The position numbers were made by a program, and so were the translations under genes. The notes below the pieces were generated by a model. The model was given only the letters and a program-made list of their open reading frames with translations. It was not told where the DNA came from and searched no databases. DNA of 64,000 nt from Rhizobium sp. WYJ-E13 (GTDB lineage Bacteria > Pseudomonadota > Alphaproteobacteria > Rhizobiales > Rhizobiaceae). The stretch covers positions 1,674,001 to 1,738,000 of the forward strand of contig NZ_CP076853.1 in assembly GCF_018987265.1 (NCBI RefSeq), written 5' to 3'. This document shows, one piece after another, positions 13,952 through 33,556 of the stretch; position 1 is the first letter of the stretch; each line of letters opens with the position of its first letter.

Positions 13952-15436
13952 TTACTGAGCAGCGAGCGGAGCCGCTGTAGCCGCACGCGTCACCGGCGGC
14001 GGGTTCCACTTGCCGATCAGCGCGCTGCCCTTCGGCGCATAGAGCCTCATCGTCAGATTATACGGGCCGTTCGGCGCCGGCAGCCAGTTCCATTCCCTAT
14101 CCTTCCCGGGGCTTTCGGTCTGGAAATAAAGGTCGAGCGAGCCGTCGGCGTTATACTGGAACGGCATCCAGCTGCTGACCGCGAAACGGTTAAGCGGGTT
14201 GGCGACCTGGAAGCCGTCGCTGTCATAGAGGGTGACCGACCAGAAAGCGTTGACCGGCGGAATCGCCTCCTTTTCGAAATGGATGGTGTAATTGCTTCGT
14301 CCGTCCAGCGGGTTGCCGGTTTCATCCGCAAGGTTCAGCGGATAGATGGCGTCTTCAGGCAGATTGGCGCCAAGTCCCTGTTGCGCCACGATCGCCCGTT
14401 TCAGGTAGTAATTGCCATAGACGCCCATCGTGTCGGTGTTCATCGACCAGCCATTGACCACGCGTGCCAATGTCTTCAGCTTCCAGCCCATGAGCGCCTG
14501 CGCATCCTGCGGTGCCGTCTTCAACGCTTTCTGAACGATGGGATCGGCCTTGGACAGGTCAAAGCTCTTGCCGGGCTCGATACCGATCTGCTTCATGCGG
14601 GCAATGATCGGTTGATCGGTGCTGTGCGGCGGATGAAGTTTCAGGAGTTCGGCAGCGTAAGCGAAATAGTCTTCCGCCGAAGCCGTATCGGCCTGCATCT
14701 TAGGCGGCGTCTTCATGTCGACGGAAGGGTCTATCTTGACCTCGGCCGGCTTGGCGTCTTTGCCCCACTGCGACAGCGGCGTGATCTTGTAGCCGTCCTG
14801 GATCTTGTGAACGGCATCGTAGTCATCGGGGCCATCGGTCTTGGTGCGCCCGATGATCCAGACATAGGGCGTCGGAGCGTCGATCCGTTCGGTCCCATCA
14901 GGCAGCTTGAATTCGTCGAACCTGTCGCGAAGCTCGGGCCTCCAGCCGGGCGGTGCGATCAGGAAATTTCCGGCCGATGTTCCGGTCGTTCGCCAGCCCG
15001 GCGCGGCGAACACATCCGTCCACATGTCCAGCATCGGCAGTAGGTAATAGCGGCCTCCGGTATCCGGCGCGGTAACCACCACCGGCTCCGTCGTCAGATC
15101 GAGCCAGCCGCTCGAATAGAGCGTGTCGAAATTCGGCCGGACCACGGCCTTCATGTCCGCCGTCGGAAACGCGCGGATATTGATGAACCGGTTGGGCGGA
15201 CCGCCGATTGCCCCCTCCTTCGGTTCCATGTTGGTCAATTGCTTGCGGGTGATGTCCATCGTTATCAGCGGATAAAAATAGACATAGGCCTCGATGCCGA
15301 TCTGACGCGCCTCCTCCTCCGTCAGGGAGGCGGCCCTGGCCTCAGGTGCGGCCGGAATGGCCATCGAAGCAATTGACAGGAAGACGAACGACATAGGCGT
15401 TCGCAACAGGCGTTTGATCCCAAACTGGATTGTCAT
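13952..15436 (-). CDS. DUF1254/DUF1214 secreted protein
   Basis: 494-residue exported protein of unknown biochemical role. A signal peptide (MTIQFGIKRLLRTP onward, cut near ARA-ASL) precedes the DUF1254 domain (about 45-175, AYVYFYPLITMDITRK) and a C-terminal DUF1214 domain (about 355-475, FWSVTLYDSDGFQVANPLNR). The start at 15436 is chosen over the longer frame because of the signal peptide and a GGGGGGAAA Shine-Dalgarno. It is preceded at 137 bases by copy A of the shared 18-bp motif, linking it to the OmpA operon and the sulfatase. Confidence 0.88.
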   Translation of the reverse strand: MTIQFGIKRLLRTPMSFVFLSIASMAIPAAPEARAASLTEEEARQIGIEAYVYFYPLITMDITRKQLTNMEPKEGAIGGPPNRFINIRAFPTADMKAVVRPNFDTLYSSGWLDLTTEPVVVTAPDTGGRYYLLPMLDMWTDVFAAPGWRTTGTSAGNFLIAPPGWRPELRDRFDEFKLPDGTERIDAPTPYVWIIGRTKTDGPDDYDAVHKIQDGYKITPLSQWGKDAKPAEVKIDPSVDMKTPPKMQADTASAEDYFAYAAELLKLHPPHSTDQPIIARMKQIGIEPGKSFDLSKADPIVQKALKTAPQDAQALMGWKLKTLARVVNGWSMNTDTMGVYGNYYLKRAIVAQQGLGANLPEDAIYPLNLADETGNPLDGRSNYTIHFEKEAIPPVNAFWSVTLYDSDGFQVANPLNRFAVSSWMPFQYNADGSLDLYFQTESPGKDREWNWLPAPNGPYNLTMRLYAPKGSALIGKWNPPPVTRAATAAPLAAQ

Positions 15437-15570: not shown

Positions 15571-15607
15571 CGGAAGTACGTTACAGTAAACGGCGCCGTA
15601 AATGGCC
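15571..15607 (-). promoter_or_regulatory. Shared 18-bp motif, copy A
   Basis: Read towards the DUF1254 gene this is GTTTACTGTAACGTACTT, preceded 6 bases earlier by ATTTAC. It is one of three near-identical sites within 5 kb (also at 16371-16407 and 20670-20707). The core contains TTAC-n-GTAA dyad symmetry typical of repressor sites. It lies midway between the divergent DUF1254 and LysE-family genes and could serve both. Confidence 0.6.
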
Positions 15608-15721
15608 GGGATACAGAACTCTTTGCTTCGATCCGGAGCAGGATATTGGCTTTGATTGAAGGCCCTTCCGCAAATGTCAGGCGAATGCCATAACTCGATT
15701 CCCGACACGGAGGAGGACGAC

Positions 15722-16357
15722 ATGACTGAAATGACGGTTCTTGCATTTGCGCTCGTGGCATTCATCGGCATCGCCACGCCCGGCCCGACCGTGCTTCTCG
15801 CCCTGACGAACGGCTCGAAATTCGGAGTGCGCCGGGCGATATCGGGCATGATCGGTGCTGTCATGTCCGACTTCGTGCTGATCGGCGCAGTCGCATTGGG
15901 TCTTGGCGCCCTGCTCGCGGCCTCGGAATTCTGGTTCACCGTCGTCAAATGGGTCGGCGTCTGCTACCTCGTCTTCCTGGGTGTCATGCTGCTGCGTTCG
16001 AAGGGAACGCTTGACGTCTCGCTGCGCTCTGAAAGCGGAAACGCAGCCGCTTCGGCAGTGACGATCTTCCTGAAGAGCTTTCTCGTCGCCGTCACCAACC
16101 CGAAGGGCTATCTGTTCTTCTCGGCCTTCCTGCCGCAATTCATTGATCCCTCGGGTCCGCAGGTCGAGCAATATGCCATGCTCGCCCTCGTCTTCGCCGC
16201 CATCGATTTCATGGTCATGTTCGGCTACGCGGCTCTCGGCTCGCAGGCCGTCCGGCTGCTCCGGAAATCGGGCGCGCTCTGGCTCGACCGGATCTGCGGC
16301 AGCGCGCTTCTGACGCTTGCCGGGTCCTTGGCGCTCTATCGGCGGGCCAGCACGTAA
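15722..16357 (+). CDS. LysE/RhtB-family amino acid exporter
   Basis: 211-residue inner-membrane exporter with about six hydrophobic segments. It has the family signature near the N-terminus (GIATPGPTVLLALTNGSKFG) and the FLKSFLVAVTNPKGYLFFSAF block in the middle. The start at 15722 follows GGAGGAGG; the longer frame adds a non-homologous hydrophilic stretch. Members export Lys, Arg, homoserine, threonine or toxic analogues; the substrate here cannot be assigned. Confidence 0.9.
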   Translation: MTEMTVLAFALVAFIGIATPGPTVLLALTNGSKFGVRRAISGMIGAVMSDFVLIGAVALGLGALLAASEFWFTVVKWVGVCYLVFLGVMLLRSKGTLDVSLRSESGNAAASAVTIFLKSFLVAVTNPKGYLFFSAFLPQFIDPSGPQVEQYAMLALVFAAIDFMVMFGYAALGSQAVRLLRKSGALWLDRICGSALLTLAGSLALYRRAST

Positions 16358-16370
16358 CTCCCCTCACCTG

Positions 16371-16407
16371 CCGATTTACAGCGAGTTTACGGTAACGTAC
16401 TTATCCG
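16371..16407 (+). promoter_or_regulatory. Shared 18-bp motif, copy B
   Basis: Read towards the Cys-rich/OmpA operon this is GTTTACGGTAACGTACTT (16385-16402), preceded 5 bases earlier by ATTTAC. It ends 76 bases before the start codon at 16478. The orientation relative to the gene is the same as in copies A and C. Confidence 0.6.
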
Positions 16408-16477
16408 AACTCTCCCGATCTGCATTCAATAGTCCCGAGGGGGCGCCGTTCCGGCGCCGCAACAGGAGGGCTTGTGC

Positions 16478-16900
16478 ATGCGTGGAGTATGGAGACTGAC
16501 TGGCGCGGCGGCGATCGCCATCATCGCCTGGACGGGTGCGGCGAAGGCAGACACGATCAGCTATGCCGATGCGATCACCGTGCTCGCGAAGGATTGCGGC
16601 GCCGATATCAAGAGGCTCTGCAAGGGGCTGAACCTCGGCAATAACAGGATCGCCGATTGCCTCGCACAGAATGCGGGCAAGGTCTCGCCAACCTGCACAT
16701 CCACGCTTGCGAGTGTCGCGGCATCGATCCAGAAGCGGGAGCAGGCACAGACGGCCTACAGTAAGGTCTGCGCCACCGACATGGCGCGGCGCTGCAATGG
16801 CGTTGTCGGCGACGGCTACATTCTCGCATGCCTGGCCAAAAAGCAGAAAACGATCAGTGCCCGGTGCAATCAGGCGATATCAGATGCAGGCTGGAGGTAA
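16478..16900 (+). CDS. Secreted cysteine-rich repeat protein
   Basis: 140-residue exported protein with a signal peptide ending near AKA-DTIS. The mature part has two repeats of a Cys-rich unit: CGADIKRLCKGLNLGNNRIADCL...CT and CATDMARRCNGVVGDGYILACL...C. They resemble the Cys-rich repeat family first described in Golgi apparatus protein 1. Eight cysteines suggest disulfides in the periplasm. AGGAGGG (16464-16470) fixes the ATG at 16478. First gene of a three-gene operon behind motif copy B. Function unknown. Confidence 0.82.
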   Translation: MRGVWRLTGAAAIAIIAWTGAAKADTISYADAITVLAKDCGADIKRLCKGLNLGNNRIADCLAQNAGKVSPTCTSTLASVAASIQKREQAQTAYSKVCATDMARRCNGVVGDGYILACLAKKQKTISARCNQAISDAGWR

Positions 16901-16904
16901 GGTC

Positions 16905-17483
16905 ATGATGTCCAGAAAAATCGCCCTCGCCGGCTTTGCTGCCGCCCTCCTCTTGCCCGCTCTTGCGTTTGCGCAGCAAGTCTCCCAGGAGCGGATCATC
17001 AACGGTCTTGGAAAGCTTCAGGGGGCAGCGCCTATCGTCGACGTCGAACTGCTGAGACAGGAGGCACTGAACGGGTCCGGAAAACAGATGTCCGGCCTGC
17101 CGAACTGGAGCAAGGTGGCGCGCCTGCCGCAGATGGTGGTCGAGATCGACTTCGCGAACGATTCCGTCGCCATCGAGCCGGAATCCTACCGCACGCTCGG
17201 CATGATCGCCGATGCGCTGCATCACCCGAACCTCTGGGCCTACAAGTTCCTCGTCGTCGGCCATACGAGTTCGACCGGCACCGACCAGCACAATCTCGAC
17301 CTCAGCCAGCAGCGGGCCGAAGCGATCAAGGAGATCCTTTCGACCACCTTCGCGATCGATCCGAGTCGCCTTTATGCGGTCGGGGTCGGCGAATATTTCC
17401 CGATCGAGGGCTCGAAATCGGAGGCCGCTAATAATAGGCGCGTCCAGCTTTACAATCTCGGTGTCTTCACGAAAAAGCCGTGA
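16905..17483 (+). CDS. OmpA-family peptidoglycan-associated protein
   Basis: 192-residue exported protein with a signal peptide (MMSRKIALAGFAAALLLPAL, cut near AFA-QQ). The C-terminal OmpA domain (about 75-185) has VEIDFANDSVAIEPES, VVGHTSSTGTDQHNLDLSQQRA and NNRRVQL, the usual peptidoglycan-binding pattern. It lacks a lipobox and a beta-barrel, so it is probably periplasmic and bound to the wall. It starts 4 bases after the Cys-rich gene stop, indicating one operon. Confidence 0.9.
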   Translation: MMSRKIALAGFAAALLLPALAFAQQVSQERIINGLGKLQGAAPIVDVELLRQEALNGSGKQMSGLPNWSKVARLPQMVVEIDFANDSVAIEPESYRTLGMIADALHHPNLWAYKFLVVGHTSSTGTDQHNLDLSQQRAEAIKEILSTTFAIDPSRLYAVGVGEYFPIEGSKSEAANNRRVQLYNLGVFTKKP

Positions 17484-17504
17484 GCGACGAAGCCGGAGGC
17501 ATCG

Positions 17505-18314
17505 ATGGATTTCCTTCGTGATCTTGCCGGATGGAGCGTGCTGGCCGTCGCGGTACTTCTGCTGGTCGTGCAGCTCGTTGCACACGAAATCGGCTATCGC
17601 TTCGGTTCCGCGCGTAAGCCGAATGTTGCGGGCCAGGCAGAAAATGTCGGCGTCGTCGTTGCCGGCATGCTGGGCCTGCTCGCCTTCGTGCTTGCGCTCA
17701 CGCTTTCCTATTCGACCGCCCGTTTCAACGAGCGGCGCGAGGGCACGTTGAGTGAAGCCAACGCCATCGGCACCGCCTGGCTGCGGGCGGTCGCGATCGG
17801 CACGCCTGATGCTGTCAAGGTGGCGCGGCTGCTCGAAGATTATCTGAATGCCCGGGAGGCCTTCGTCAAAGCTGGCTTCGATTCCGATGCCATCGCCAGC
17901 GCCAACCAGGAAACCTCCCGCCTGCAGCAATCGATTTGGGCCGGCGTCAGCGCCATCGTGCGTGAGCGTCCGGATCCTGTCACGGCCGCGCTGATGGCGT
18001 CCGTCAACGAAGTCTTCGATACCGGCTCGGCGGAGCGTTTCGCCATGGGCATACGTCTGCCGCCGCAGATTTTCTGGCTGTTAGCCGGCGTCATGTTGCT
18101 CAGCATGGCCTCGGTCGGCTATCAGTTCGGGCTCCGAGGCCGGCCGGTGCGCGTTCTCATTCTGCTGCTGACGATCGTATGGACGGCGATTATAGTTAAC
18201 ATCCTGGATCTCGCCTCGCCAAGGGTCGGCAATTTCCGCACCAATGCCATCGTCTACGAATGGACGCGCCAGGGCTTTTCGGGCATGGCAGCGCCGCCAG
18301 CCACATCGCAGTGA
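17505..18314 (+). CDS. DUF4239 (bestrophin-like) membrane protein
   Basis: 269-residue membrane protein with two N-terminal spans (about 11-30 and 48-68), a cytoplasmic helical segment with the conserved EANAIGTAWLRA motif, and two C-terminal spans (about 188-230). This layout matches the DUF4239 family, distantly related to bestrophin-like channels. The ATG follows GGAGG and lies 21 bases after the OmpA-like gene, so it is the third gene of that operon. The transported ion, if any, is unknown. Confidence 0.82.
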   Translation: MDFLRDLAGWSVLAVAVLLLVVQLVAHEIGYRFGSARKPNVAGQAENVGVVVAGMLGLLAFVLALTLSYSTARFNERREGTLSEANAIGTAWLRAVAIGTPDAVKVARLLEDYLNAREAFVKAGFDSDAIASANQETSRLQQSIWAGVSAIVRERPDPVTAALMASVNEVFDTGSAERFAMGIRLPPQIFWLLAGVMLLSMASVGYQFGLRGRPVRVLILLLTIVWTAIIVNILDLASPRVGNFRTNAIVYEWTRQGFSGMAAPPATSQ

Positions 18315-18359
18315 ATACGGCCCGGGCTCCTGTCGCCGTCAGGTGACGTTGCCGAAATT

Positions 18360-19805
18360 CTATTTCTGTAGCGCTTCGCCGGCATCCGGGCGTTCTCCCA
18401 CGCGCGCCACGAGCAGCGAATAGGCCACGTAATATTTGTAGATATTGCTGACATACTGGACCGTCTCTCGGCCGACGATCTCGGAGGCGGCATTCTCGAC
18501 ATTGCCGAACCAGACATTGGGGTCGAGCCCCATGGCTTTGGCCTTGTCGCGGAATTTCCTCAGGTTCCCCGGTCCGGCATTATAGGCGGCGAAGGCAAAG
18601 AGCTGCCTGTCCTTGGCGTCCAGCCCTTCATCGTCGATATAGGTGTTGATCAGGTGGCGCAGATATTTCGCACCCGCTTCGACATTGCGGTCGGCATCCT
18701 TGTCGATCCCGGTGATGCCGACCACCTTGTCCTTTGCTGTAGAGGGGAGCATCTGCATGACGCCGACTGCCCCGCGCGGCGAGCGCCTGGACTGGTCGAG
18801 CTGCGATTCCTGATAGCCCTGCGCCAACAGCATCAGATAGTCGAAGGAATAGGTCCCGCCATATTTGCGAAAGATCTCGACGAGCTTCTGGAAACGGTCG
18901 ACGTCGGCGGGCGAATAGGCGCGTTTGACGATCTTGTCCTGCTTGTAGAAGGTGTTGCGCAGAATATTGCCGAAGGTCGTGCCGACCTTATGGGTGGCCA
19001 CGAATGCGTTGAGCTCAACCATGAATTGCGGACTGTTCTTGCGGATCGCCCAGGCGATCTTGCCTTGCGATGACAGCACGACATCATGGCGCACCTTCAT
19101 GTCGGCAAAGACATGCGTCCAGATATCCGCTTTGTAGACATCGACGATGGTGAAAGGCAGAAGCTCGGCATTGACCATCTCCATAAGGTCTTCATCCTCG
19201 AGGCTCTCGTCCATCAGGTCGATGACGATCTCGGACTTGCCTGCGGCAGAAAGCGCCTTGTTCTTCGCCAGGAGGTGTTCGTGATAGCTGCTGGTGGCCC
19301 GCACGGCCACATGCTGACCGGACAGATCGTCGAGGCTTGAAACCGGCGGGCTGCCCGGAGATGCGACCAGGACTTCCTCGGCATTTTCATAAAGCGGATC
19401 GGTAAAATCCACCTGGCGCAGCCGCTCCTCCGTGATCGTCAGGTTCGCCATGACGATATCGCCATAGCCCTCGTTCAGCGAGGTCAACAGCTTGTCGCGC
19501 GGCGTCGGCACGAAGACGATGTTGACATGATCGATCTGCTTCTTGCGGTCCTTGTTGAGGACCTTTTCGAGCTCCAGCCCGAATTGCACTGCCGTGCCGA
19601 ACTGGCGGCCCTTGTCGACGAAATAGATCGTCTTGCTGTAGGGAACGAGCACGCGAACGATGCGGCGCTCCTTCATCGCATTGAGATCGATGACGTGCTT
19701 CTGGATGAGGCCGGGAGAACCCGCCTTCTCGGCTGCCGCCGGCGTCGTCCAAAGCGACGCGGCAACGAACAACAGGACAAATAGCACCTTCAAGAACGAG
19801 CTCAT
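18360..19805 (-). CDS. mltF: MltF-like lytic transglycosylase with solute-binding domain
   Basis: 481-residue exported protein combining a family-3 solute-binding domain (about 45-285) with a C-terminal SLT lytic transglycosylase domain (about 310-440), as in MltF. The catalytic Glu is about residue 333 in QGYQESQLDQ, followed by GAVGVMQMLPSTA and AAYNAGPGN. It cleaves peptidoglycan glycan strands in the periplasm. The signal peptide starts at MSSFLKVLF; GGGAGG supports 19805. It lies 57 bases downstream of the truncated sulfatase frame, probably co-transcribed with it. Confidence 0.9.
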   Translation of the reverse strand: MSSFLKVLFVLLFVAASLWTTPAAAEKAGSPGLIQKHVIDLNAMKERRIVRVLVPYSKTIYFVDKGRQFGTAVQFGLELEKVLNKDRKKQIDHVNIVFVPTPRDKLLTSLNEGYGDIVMANLTITEERLRQVDFTDPLYENAEEVLVASPGSPPVSSLDDLSGQHVAVRATSSYHEHLLAKNKALSAAGKSEIVIDLMDESLEDEDLMEMVNAELLPFTIVDVYKADIWTHVFADMKVRHDVVLSSQGKIAWAIRKNSPQFMVELNAFVATHKVGTTFGNILRNTFYKQDKIVKRAYSPADVDRFQKLVEIFRKYGGTYSFDYLMLLAQGYQESQLDQSRRSPRGAVGVMQMLPSTAKDKVVGITGIDKDADRNVEAGAKYLRHLINTYIDDEGLDAKDRQLFAFAAYNAGPGNLRKFRDKAKAMGLDPNVWFGNVENAASEIVGRETVQYVSNIYKYYVAYSLLVARVGERPDAGEALQK

Positions 19806-19862
19806 AGAGGCCTCCCCAGCATCGGCCGTCAACACATCTGGTGAACATTGCGGCTTCGGTCT

Positions 19863-20612
19863 TTACCGTCGCGGGAGCTCCGGCCGCACTCCCGCGACGG
19901 CCTTGTCCATACGCTTGGCATTGAGTGCACCGGTATCTTCGATCTTACCATCAGCCGTTGCCTTGATGACGCCGCGCGGGGCGAACTGCCGGCGGAAGGC
20001 CGGGTACTTCGGATAGAAATAGCCCTCCGGCTCCTCCTCGGCATTGAGGTGATAAAGATTGCCGAAGAACTCGTCGAAGCCGTGCTTGATCGGCAGATGC
20101 TGATCCTGGTCGCCGAGATGGTTCTTGCCGAACTGGCCGGTCGCATAGCCCCTGGTTTTCAGCACGTCGGCAATGGTCGGCATCCAGTCCTGAATGCCAT
20201 GCGGGTCGCCGGGCATGCCGATGGTGAGAAGGCCCGTGCGGAACGGCTCCTGCCCGAGGATGAAAGAGGCACGGCCGGCTGTGCAGCTCTGCTGGCCGCA
20301 GGAATCGGTAAAGATCGCCCCTTCCCTGGCGATGCGGTCGATATTCCGCGTGCGATAGCCCATCAGACCCATGGTGTAGGCGCTGATCTGTGGAATGCCG
20401 ATATCGTCGCCGAAGATGACGAGAATGTTCGGCGGTTTGCCGGAACCACCTCCCTGGGCGGGTGCTGTCTGCGGCGTCTGCGTCGCAGCCTGATCGACCG
20501 CGGACGAGGCGGCGAGAGCCGTGATCGCAAGCGACGTGCCGCCAAGCAGAAGGTTACGGCGGCTGACGGTTGCCAACGTATCATCCTGCTCTTGATTTTC
20601 GACGTCTTTCAT
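19863..20612 (-). pseudogene. Sulfatase missing its C-terminal half
   Basis: 249 residues. A twin-arginine signal (SRRNLLLGG) is followed by the N-terminal half of an arylsulfatase: metal-site DD in VIFGDDIG, the formylglycine motif in CTAGR, and the conserved GKNHLGDQD. Intact members of this group run to roughly 540 residues. Here homology stops after NAKRMDK, and the last codons fall inside a perfect 12-bp inverted repeat. The missing half carries part of the active site, so it is probably inactive unless the remnant has a new role. The start at 20612 follows GGAGGAG. Motif copy C lies 58 bases upstream. Confidence 0.75.
19867..19900. repeat. Perfect 12-bp inverted repeat at the sulfatase break
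   Basis: CCGTCGCGGGAG and CTCCCGCGACGG are separated by 10 bases and overlap the last codons of the truncated sulfatase. There is no adjacent T run. It may be a transcription-ending hairpin or a scar of the deletion that removed the rest of the gene. Confidence 0.7.
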
Positions 20613-21060
20613 CGATCTCCTCCACGAGATGAAACCAGCACGCGAATGCTTTGCCAAATTCCATGATCGCGGAAGTACGTAACGGTAAACATCGGGCGTA
20701 AACGGCCGCGTTAACGGGCCAGGCCTTGCCGCAGCCTCCGATATCAGCCTGTCACATATTCTTCGCCGTCGCGCGTTATTGCCTGCGCGAAGCAATGACT
20801 GAAATTGGTCGAGAATGATGCCCATGTGTCACCACATAAACAGGCCAACAGCCGGCGAGCCTGAGTGACGGCGCGACCAGGGGTTGGCATCGAGCTCGCG
20901 ACACGCTTTAGGCCACTTGTGCAGGCACCAGCCGCGCCCGTAAGTCGCCTCGACGTTAATGCAGTTCTTATGTTCCCTGCCCCGGGCAATATCGATTTCC
21001 TATGGGCTTTTCGACAGACTCCCTCCTGCAATCCTGTCGATGACCTCAAGGAAGAAACCC
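20613..21060. other. Intergenic region upstream of the sulfatase
   Basis: 448 bases. It carries motif copy C near the sulfatase. The remainder contains only short overlapping frames with poor starts, and I see no convincing gene, RNA or repeat in it. Confidence 0.5.
20670..20707 (-). promoter_or_regulatory. Shared 18-bp motif, copy C
   Basis: Read towards the sulfatase gene this is GTTTACCGTTACGTACTT (20673-20690), preceded 7 bases earlier by a second GTTTAC. It ends 58 bases before the start at 20612. Copies A and C also share GGCC before the first TTTAC and CCG after the core. Confidence 0.6.
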
Positions 21061-32381: not shown

Positions 32382-32764
32382 GGCGGCTTGATGCTGCATT
32401 GATAGGGCGAATCGAATTGCCTCGAACCCGCCACGCTCACTTTCGCGTTCCTGATATCCTGTATCGCCGCTCGCGCCGATGAGGGGGTGGTGTCGGTTTC
32501 TGGCTTCCAGGGCAATATGGCAGCTTCGCAGCCATAGCCCCGGAGCTGGGCTTTTCGCTTCCCATGATTACCTACGCCTATTCGGGAGATGCGGGCAAAT
32601 GCGAACAGAACGGATACCGACTGTGGCAATCAAGCCACGTCCGCCGGCAACCGCAAATATTAGCAGTCGAAAATATTTTGAAAAATCTGAGGCCTCGATC
32701 ATGATCGAGGCTATCAGGGCGGGATTCGGCATTCATCGCGCGCTGAACATTTGTGGGGGAACCA
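32382..32764. other. Intergenic region before the outer-membrane protein gene
   Basis: 383 bases. The first half contains overlapping short frames on both strands without starts or homology and may be decayed sequence. The second half is AT-rich around 32655-32690 and carries a perfect 20-bp palindrome. I see no real gene. Confidence 0.5.
32692..32711. promoter_or_regulatory. Perfect 20-bp palindrome, possible operator
   Basis: GCCTCGATCATGATCGAGGC is self-complementary over its full length and lies 54 bases before the outer-membrane protein start codon, next to an AT-rich block. It has the size and symmetry of a dimeric regulator site. Confidence 0.5.
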
Positions 32765-33556
32765 ATGAGATCTTCTGTCATTCGAACTCTGGTCTGCATC
32801 GGAATCTGTTTCATCACCGGCAGCACCCTCGCCGCGGACATCCAATCCCCGATGACGCCGGAGGTGCAGCCGATAAAGACCGAAAGTGGCTGGACCTTTG
32901 CATTCGTGCCTTATTTCTGGGCGGCAGGACTGTCGGGTGACATTGCCCAGTTCGGACTGCCGGAAGCTCATGTCGATGCCAGCTTCAGCGACATCCTCGA
33001 CCACTTCGATTTCGGTGCGATGGCGATGGGGGAAGCCCGTTACGGGCCGTACAGCATCTTCGGCGATGCAATCTATTTGAAGATATCAGGTCAGTCGGGC
33101 ACGCCGAGGGGGATTTTGGCGACTGGCGTCGAACTCTCGTCCGAAACCTTCGCAGGCTTGCTTGGTGCCGGTTACTCGGTCTACGAGGACAATGCAGCGC
33201 GGCTCGACATTGTCGGCGGCGCGCGCGTGTGGTCCGTCAAAAGCGAACTGTCCTTCAGCGGCGGCGTTCTCGACGGACGTTCTGCCACCGATGAGGCAAC
33301 CTGGGTCGATGGCATGGCCGGTTTCAAGGGGACCTATTCCATCACCCCGGAAATCTACCTGACCGGCTGGGGGCTTGTCGGTGCCGGCGGTGCCGACATC
33401 GATTGGGACGTCGCCGCGGCGATCGGCTACAACTTCAACGATACCGTCTCGGCGCTTGCCGGTTACCGCGCACTCGGGGTCGACTACAGCAACGACGGAT
33501 TCGTCTTCGACGTGGTCCAGCAGGGACCGATGCTTGGGCTCAAGGTGAAGTTCTAA
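32765..33556 (+). CDS. Outer-membrane beta-barrel protein, unknown role
   Basis: 263-residue exported protein. A signal peptide (MRSSVIRTLVCIGICFITGSTLA) precedes alternating amphipathic strands (WTFAFVPYFWAAGLSG, ARYGPYSIFGDAIYLKI, FAGLLGAGYSVYED), and it ends in Phe (GLKVKF), the usual outer-membrane insertion signal. The length fits an 8-10 strand barrel. The start at 32765 follows GGGGG; an upstream GTG in frame is less likely. Expression may be governed by the palindrome upstream. Confidence 0.8.
   Translation: MRSSVIRTLVCIGICFITGSTLAADIQSPMTPEVQPIKTESGWTFAFVPYFWAAGLSGDIAQFGLPEAHVDASFSDILDHFDFGAMAMGEARYGPYSIFGDAIYLKISGQSGTPRGILATGVELSSETFAGLLGAGYSVYEDNAARLDIVGGARVWSVKSELSFSGGVLDGRSATDEATWVDGMAGFKGTYSITPEIYLTGWGLVGAGGADIDWDVAAAIGYNFNDTVSALAGYRALGVDYSNDGFVFDVVQQGPMLGLKVKF

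Follow-up and report, generated by a model that had tools for sequence, protein, structure and literature searches.

The motif and its copies in the window

The stretch of DNA analysed here, referred to as the window, comprises 64,000 nucleotides (C1:1674001-1738000) of the 6.9-Mb, three-contig genome of Rhizobium sp. WYJ-E13, whose close relatives include R. mesoamericanum, R. vallis, R. cauense and R. chutanense. The subject of this work is an 18-bp motif, GTTTACNGTWACGTACTT, which is exactly matched three times in the window, together with its putative regulator, a protein encoded outside the window that we denote REG. The three copies reported in a first-pass annotation of the sequence were recovered, two of them at the positions given there and the first shifted by one base, to 15574-15591 on the minus strand; no further match was found in the window at up to 3 mismatches. 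Chance origin of these copies is unlikely: in 100 dinucleotide-preserving shuffles of the window, also searched at up to 3 mismatches, the mean number of matches was 0.01, and none of the 100 reached three. As originally described, 16 of the 18 positions are invariant across the three copies, each copy is oriented toward the gene downstream of it, and an additional [AG]TTTAC precedes each core, by 6, 5 and 7 bases in sites 1, 2 and 3, respectively.

The first core, 15574..15591 (GTTTACTGTAACGTACTT), faces a gene for a DUF1254/DUF1214 protein with a signal-like N-terminus (13952..15436, minus strand; presumed start MTIQFG at 15436); all 18 positions are identical in G027 (compared genomes and loci carry G and L numbers), and the upstream half-site, ATTTAC at 15598..15603 (minus strand), lies 12 bp before the TTTAC of the core. 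The second core, 16385..16402 on the plus strand (GTTTACGGTAACGTACTT), has the half-site ATTTAC at 16374..16379 (plus strand), which aligns with G027 and G033, where it is kept, and is GTTTAC in G137. This site precedes a gene for an exported Cys-rich repeat protein (Cys_rich_FGFR, hereafter CysR; 16478..16900), with which genes for an OmpA-family protein (16905..17483) and a DUF4239/bestrophin-like membrane protein (17505..18314; slightly below the Pfam cut-off) presumably share a transcript, all three on the plus strand. The third core, 20673..20690 on the minus strand (GTTTACCGTTACGTACTT), has the half-site GTTTAC at 20698..20703 (minus strand) and a further GTTAAC at 20710-20715, and serves a sulfatase gene (19863..20612, minus strand) with the formylglycine motif CTAGR and an SRRNLL signal. 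In G033 and G137, this promoter retains the core and both upstream repeats, GTTAAC and GTTTAC, and the DNA further upstream has diverged. Next to the sulfatase gene is one for an MltF-like protein with SBP_bac_3 and SLT domains (18360..19835, minus strand), a homolog of which is directly preceded by a site in G003 (L024) and G036 (L057).

All three sites lie outside likely coding regions, as had been proposed, with the sulfatase presumed to start at ~20612 (MKDVENQ), where GGAGGAG precedes the start, and not at 20825, where the open reading frame was listed to begin. The flanks of the sites are unlike one another except for the upstream TTTAC repeat, which speaks against a dispersed repeat, a possibility raised in the first-pass annotation that we accordingly rejected.

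The sulfatase in the window covers positions 1-139 of the 301 in the Pfam Sulfatase profile, and its ortholog in G033 (L059:10801-12513) is full length. Given that the C-terminal half is missing, strain WYJ-E13 may make an inactive product from this third target. Between sites 1 and 2 lies a gene for a LysE-type translocator (15656-16357, plus strand), divergent from the DUF1254 gene; a LysE-type gene also adjoins the CysR site in G027, G033 and G137 (L026, L020, L118).

Sites across the genome and a distant FGE cassette

Scanning the genome and those of relatives, as the first-pass annotation had proposed, revealed recurrent sites in front of genes and a regulon wider than the window. With R at position 1 and up to 1 mismatch allowed, the pattern matched 11 sites in the genome and its reversed control none. 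A scan at up to 3 mismatches was at noise level (18 versus 17 in the control) and was excluded from counting. Overall, 12 sites were of interest, of which 5 were exact, 5 had one mismatch and 2 had two. Six sites are packed within 7 kb at C1:3083781-3090511 (L009), 1.4 Mb from the window, in a cassette encoding a DUF900 hydrolase, a formylglycine-generating enzyme (FGE), a HAD protein, a beta-barrel-like outer-membrane protein, an MscS channel, a 107-amino-acid protein (P107) and REG. Elsewhere in the genome, sites are found before an OpuAC/YkuD pair (L010), before a gene for a full-length sulfatase (L011), and before a DUF3302-like gene followed by one for a 408-amino-acid protein without a Pfam match (L012).

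In the FGE of the cassette, the PF03781 domain scores 265.7 bits and Cys288 and Cys293 lie in GGSHLCAPNYCRRYRPAAR; the sulfatases contain CTAGR or CTPGR. By the Cys-pair rule for FGE and the C-x-P/A-x-R rule for sulfatases, one operator thus serves both a maturase and the proteins that it probably matures. Another outer-membrane protein, 58% identical to the barrel protein of the cassette, is encoded in the window itself (32747-33556, plus strand), with no motif copy nearby in the window.

We then mapped the genes behind 198 deduplicated sites (up to 1 mismatch to KTWACNGTWRCGTACTT) in the fetched loci, assigning to each site any of 15 reference genes that started on the same strand no more than 450 bp downstream, with homology-anchored or presumed starts. 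A reference gene lies downstream in the same direction for 159 of these sites: P107 (30), FGE (28), sulfatase (24+4), DUF1254 (18), the outer-membrane protein (17), MscS (12), DUF900 (8), CysR (4), OpuAC (3), L012b (3), L012a (2), MltF (2), REG (2) and HAD (2), counts that inform on direction and recurrence, not on genome-wide frequency, the loci having been selected for REG or for sites. The remaining 39 sites have no assigned gene, and for 16 of these a reference gene starts on the other side. These data support the earlier suggestion of a regulon of envelope and exported proteins, the core of which, a sulfatase-maturation/envelope cassette, lies outside the window.

Architecture of the putative operator and promoter geometry

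The architecture of the element was derived from 127 deduplicated sites (up to 2 mismatches to RTTTACNGTWRCGTACTT) in loci fetched around REG or around sites. The TTAC-n-GTAA dyad pointed out in the first-pass annotation is real, and in other genera it is perfect (GTAACnGTTAC). The full element is longer and also includes TTTAC repeats about one helical turn upstream, an invariant GTACTT beyond the dyad and a -35-like CTTCC end, with C at position 20 in 101 of the 127 sites. The commonest spacing places a TTTAC 12 bp upstream of the core TTTAC (33/127), other distances being few.

Among 119 deduplicated sites with unlike downstream flanks, an A2..T6 hexamer is present at offsets 20-22 in 78, compared with 10-22 such hexamers in each of ten other three-offset bins. 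With this -10-like element and a spacer of 17-18 bp, the -35 box falls on CTTCC, that is, within the motif. The A2/T6 rule is satisfied by 8 of the 12 sites in the genome and by one of the three in the window, that of the sulfatase gene, where a weak -10-like hexamer (20646..20651, minus strand) occupies the preferred distance. No consensus sigma70 promoter, with a good pair of -35 and -10 boxes, was found at the three window sites.

REG, a predicted membrane-anchored winged-helix protein

REG (579 amino acids; G000:C1:3088216-3089952) is labeled in databases only as a tetratricopeptide-repeat (TPR) protein, and its Pfam matches are of the TPR type only, without a receiver or kinase domain. 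The structure model predicts an N-terminal OmpR/PhoB-like winged helix, one transmembrane helix (residues 163-185; hydropathy peak of 2.16 at residue 165) and a C-terminal alpha/beta and TPR domain. The winged helix is predicted to be cytoplasmic and the alpha/beta and TPR domain periplasmic, which is the plan of CadC and ToxR.

The N-terminus of REG has no match in Pfam or NCBIfam. For the Pfam family Trans_reg_C (PF00486) in particular, REG was unmatched at E 0.01, and one of 37 domains of the REG family matched at E 0.15; when the domain alignment was searched against the sequences of solved structures, no relative emerged, and the one row obtained was at chance level. Alignment with hhalign against 9 of the 32 PF00486 domains of the genome placed the recognition helices in register, with an E-value of 0.0033 but a probability of 9.8%. 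In structure comparison of the predicted DNA-binding domain, the PhoB-pho box complex (1gxp) appeared in rows 2, 3 and 5. The periplasmic domain of CadC was among the Foldseek matches to REG, at ranks 6, 12, 14 and 16, but with rmsd of 16-18.

REG and the putative operator co-occur and co-vary

Among 148 Rhizobium genomes, a close REG was defined by a best match of at least 49% identity (49-100%) at E <=1e-150. All 50 genomes with a close REG contain at least one site (median 9; at least four in 47), against 14 of the 98 genomes without it, of which 3 have at least four (any site: Fisher p 5e-27, without kinship correction). Two of the genomes with many sites and no REG bear traces of the cassette: in G033, 21-amino-acid remnants of REG and short remnants of FGE persist between MscS and DUF900, and in G137, MscS and DUF900 are direct neighbors (L107). 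For G160, which also has at least four sites without a close REG, unlike these two, no explanation was found. Loss of the regulator would be expected to leave orphan sites behind, and several of these are still located in front of sulfatase, DUF1254 or OpuAC genes. Frame-split REG genes, remnants or fragments are found in L058 (G033), L054 (G027), L083 (G090) and L130 (G030), with operators remaining in the genome, and represent natural regulator losses.

In the family at large, 22 of 297 surveyed genomes contain an exact match to KTWACNGTWRCGTACTT, and 20 of these are outside the genus. We searched for REG (near-full-length, 35-47% identity, E <=1e-80) in these 20 genomes and in 20 siteless ones, the other 252 siteless non-genus genomes being outside the search; 15 of the 20 siteless genomes come from genera with REG carriers (g41, g57, g87, g98, g108 and g127), such that within-genus contrasts stand in for kinship-corrected statistics. 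REG was present in all 14 genomes with at least two sites, in none of the 6 with one, and in none of the 20 with none (Fisher p 4e-11, uncorrected for kinship). A site precedes the P107-REG pair in 11 of these 14 non-genus REG loci, an autoregulation pattern. In L060:6941 (G053), L139 and L140 (G291 and G360), a single copy of the motif is located just upstream of a REG-like gene and points away from it.

Operator versions change with the REG clade. The site before FGE is GTTAACAGTAACATTCTT in the clade with REG at 37% identity (L076, L077), CGTTACnGTWACGTACTT with the 41% REG of G115, and, with REG paralogs at 25% identity, TTTTACTGTAACCTACTT in L086 and L089 and CTTACTGTAACCTACTT in L085. 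An TTTTACTGTAACCTACTT site also precedes FGE in L090, a locus that shows the site without REG. When up to 1 mismatch was allowed, a broad pattern, TTWACNGTWACNTNCTT, had 22 matches in such loci (354 kb), and 60 simulation runs gave a mean of 0.017; 5 of these matches lie at the 3' end of REG genes and are homologous copies, and the pattern was not found in L061, L088, L092, L093 and L094. The cassettes in L085, L086 and L089 are second FGE cassettes, each with a distant REG paralog and an operator version of its own, TTTTACTGTAACCTACTTCAAGAA (CTTAC in L085).

A model of regulation and its alternatives

The motif, its targets, the promoter geometry, the co-occurrence with REG and the co-variation with REG clades, all computed here, make it probable that the motif is the operator and -35 element of a sulfatase-envelope regulon run by REG, a CadC-like activator. 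From co-occurrence and promoter geometry, we infer that REG binds the motif and activates transcription. A periplasmic or envelope signal would be perceived by REG, a dimer or oligomer of which would bind the dyad [GT]TWACnGTWAC along with the TTTAC repeats one helical turn upstream. Given the ACTTCC end at the -35 position and the -10-like box 17-18 bp further on, REG most likely would act as an activator recruiting the sigma70 RNA polymerase to promoters with a poor -35 box. The targets would include the gene of REG itself (via the co-directional P107 gene), FGE and the sulfatases that FGE would mature, and, further, envelope or surface proteins (DUF1254/1214, outer-membrane barrel, MscS, DUF900 hydrolase, OmpA/DUF4239, MltF-like and OpuAC/YkuD).

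Because the site overlaps the -35 position, where a repressor would work too, REG could instead cover this region until a signal frees it. We regard such repression as unlikely: it would not need the fixed spacing to the -10-like element seen in 78 of the 119 sites, no good -35/-10 pair was found at the three window sites, and activation is the known role of CadC and similar membrane regulators with the OmpR fold (PMC5430869). It is less probable still that another protein binds the motif, with REG a mere member or modulator of the regulon. REG itself sits behind a site, with P107 between the two; P107, encoded in most REG loci, is the main rival binder, and an unlinked factor is the other candidate. 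P107, however, has no domain match at all, let alone one to a DNA-binding domain, and was not detected in REG loci L044, L060, L084, L085, L086 and L089, several of which have operators (the search covered these loci, not the rest of their genomes); moreover, the operator versions track the REG clade, including clades without detectable P107.

The first-pass annotation had suggested a TetR-like regulator, to which the symmetry of the dyad, perfect in other genera, would be suited. This suggestion finds no support here and we consider it very improbable, given that the element extends past the dyad, with the invariant GTACTT and the upstream direct repeats, and that the distribution of the motif follows REG, a predicted membrane-anchored protein with the OmpR/PhoB fold; furthermore, no TetR-like gene is among the 9 Pfam-scanned open reading frames of cassette L009, although a genome-by-genome survey of TetR genes was not made. 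Equally hard to credit is the view of the whole motif as a -35 region for an alternative sigma factor. It would account for the constant distance to the -10-like element, but the element, at ~30 bp with the upstream repeats, far exceeds a -35 box, and the -10 resembles that of sigma70 (A2, T6). The known -35/-10 pairs of extracytoplasmic function (ECF) sigma factors, of the GGAAC/CGTC type, also differ from the motif.

Relation to known systems and implications

The predicted plan of REG is a known one (ToxR/CadC-like), whereas its DNA-binding subfamily, the operator and the regulon appear to be new. Compared to CadC of Escherichia coli, a ToxR-like membrane-integrated one-component activator, REG has a DNA-binding domain without Pfam-detectable homology, and its presumed targets are sulfatase, FGE and envelope genes, where CadC controls cadBA; the Cad1 site of CadC lies at -153 to -113, whereas the site described here is long, strict and abuts the -35 position. 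The fold predicted for the N-terminal domain of REG resembles that of the PhoB/OmpR response regulators (1gxp), but REG lacks a receiver domain and is predicted to be membrane-anchored. Similarly, the operator resembles the pho box in that direct repeats about one helical turn apart lie upstream of the -10 box in place of a good -35 box, but its repeat unit is different, TTTAC at ~12 bp combined with a dyad. As in known pairs of FGE and type I sulfatases, the same FGE domain with Cys288/Cys293 is found alongside sulfatases with CTAGR or CTPGR; here, the enzyme and its substrate proteins, encoded at separate loci, share one operator.

A shared regulator of FGE and sulfatases was not found in the literature searched, a corpus mostly lacking subscription papers, and the motif, the regulon and REG went undescribed there as well. 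The motif strings occurred in 7 papers on unrelated matters, such as primers and other organisms, and a paper on acid stress in R. tropici (PMC5936775) yielded one mention of choline sulfatase and nothing usable for the present purpose.

More tentatively, and with a probability slightly below even, REG may represent a large family of membrane-anchored transcription factors, as yet without a name, that combine a new winged-helix subfamily, a transmembrane helix and a periplasmic TPR domain and are listed as TPR proteins, adenylate cyclases or hypothetical proteins. Within this family, a single operator design would exist in clade-specific versions, each recognized by its own clade, and the clades would control matching sets of sulfatase-FGE and envelope genes; they may sense sulfated or otherwise altered surface polymers and in this way link the maturation of sulfatases to envelope state. 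Versions of the operator and the regulator exist in at least 8 genera of the bacterial family (Rhizobium plus seven others, to which the 14 REG carriers belong), which opens the code between recognition helix and operator to testing by simple swaps. A protein family without a DNA-binding annotation gains a candidate regulator, an operator that can be read and a list of targets, and DUF1254/1214, DUF900 and DUF4239 proteins, FGE and sulfatases of unknown substrate are joined in one proposed regulon, the signal of which could be sought with a single reporter.

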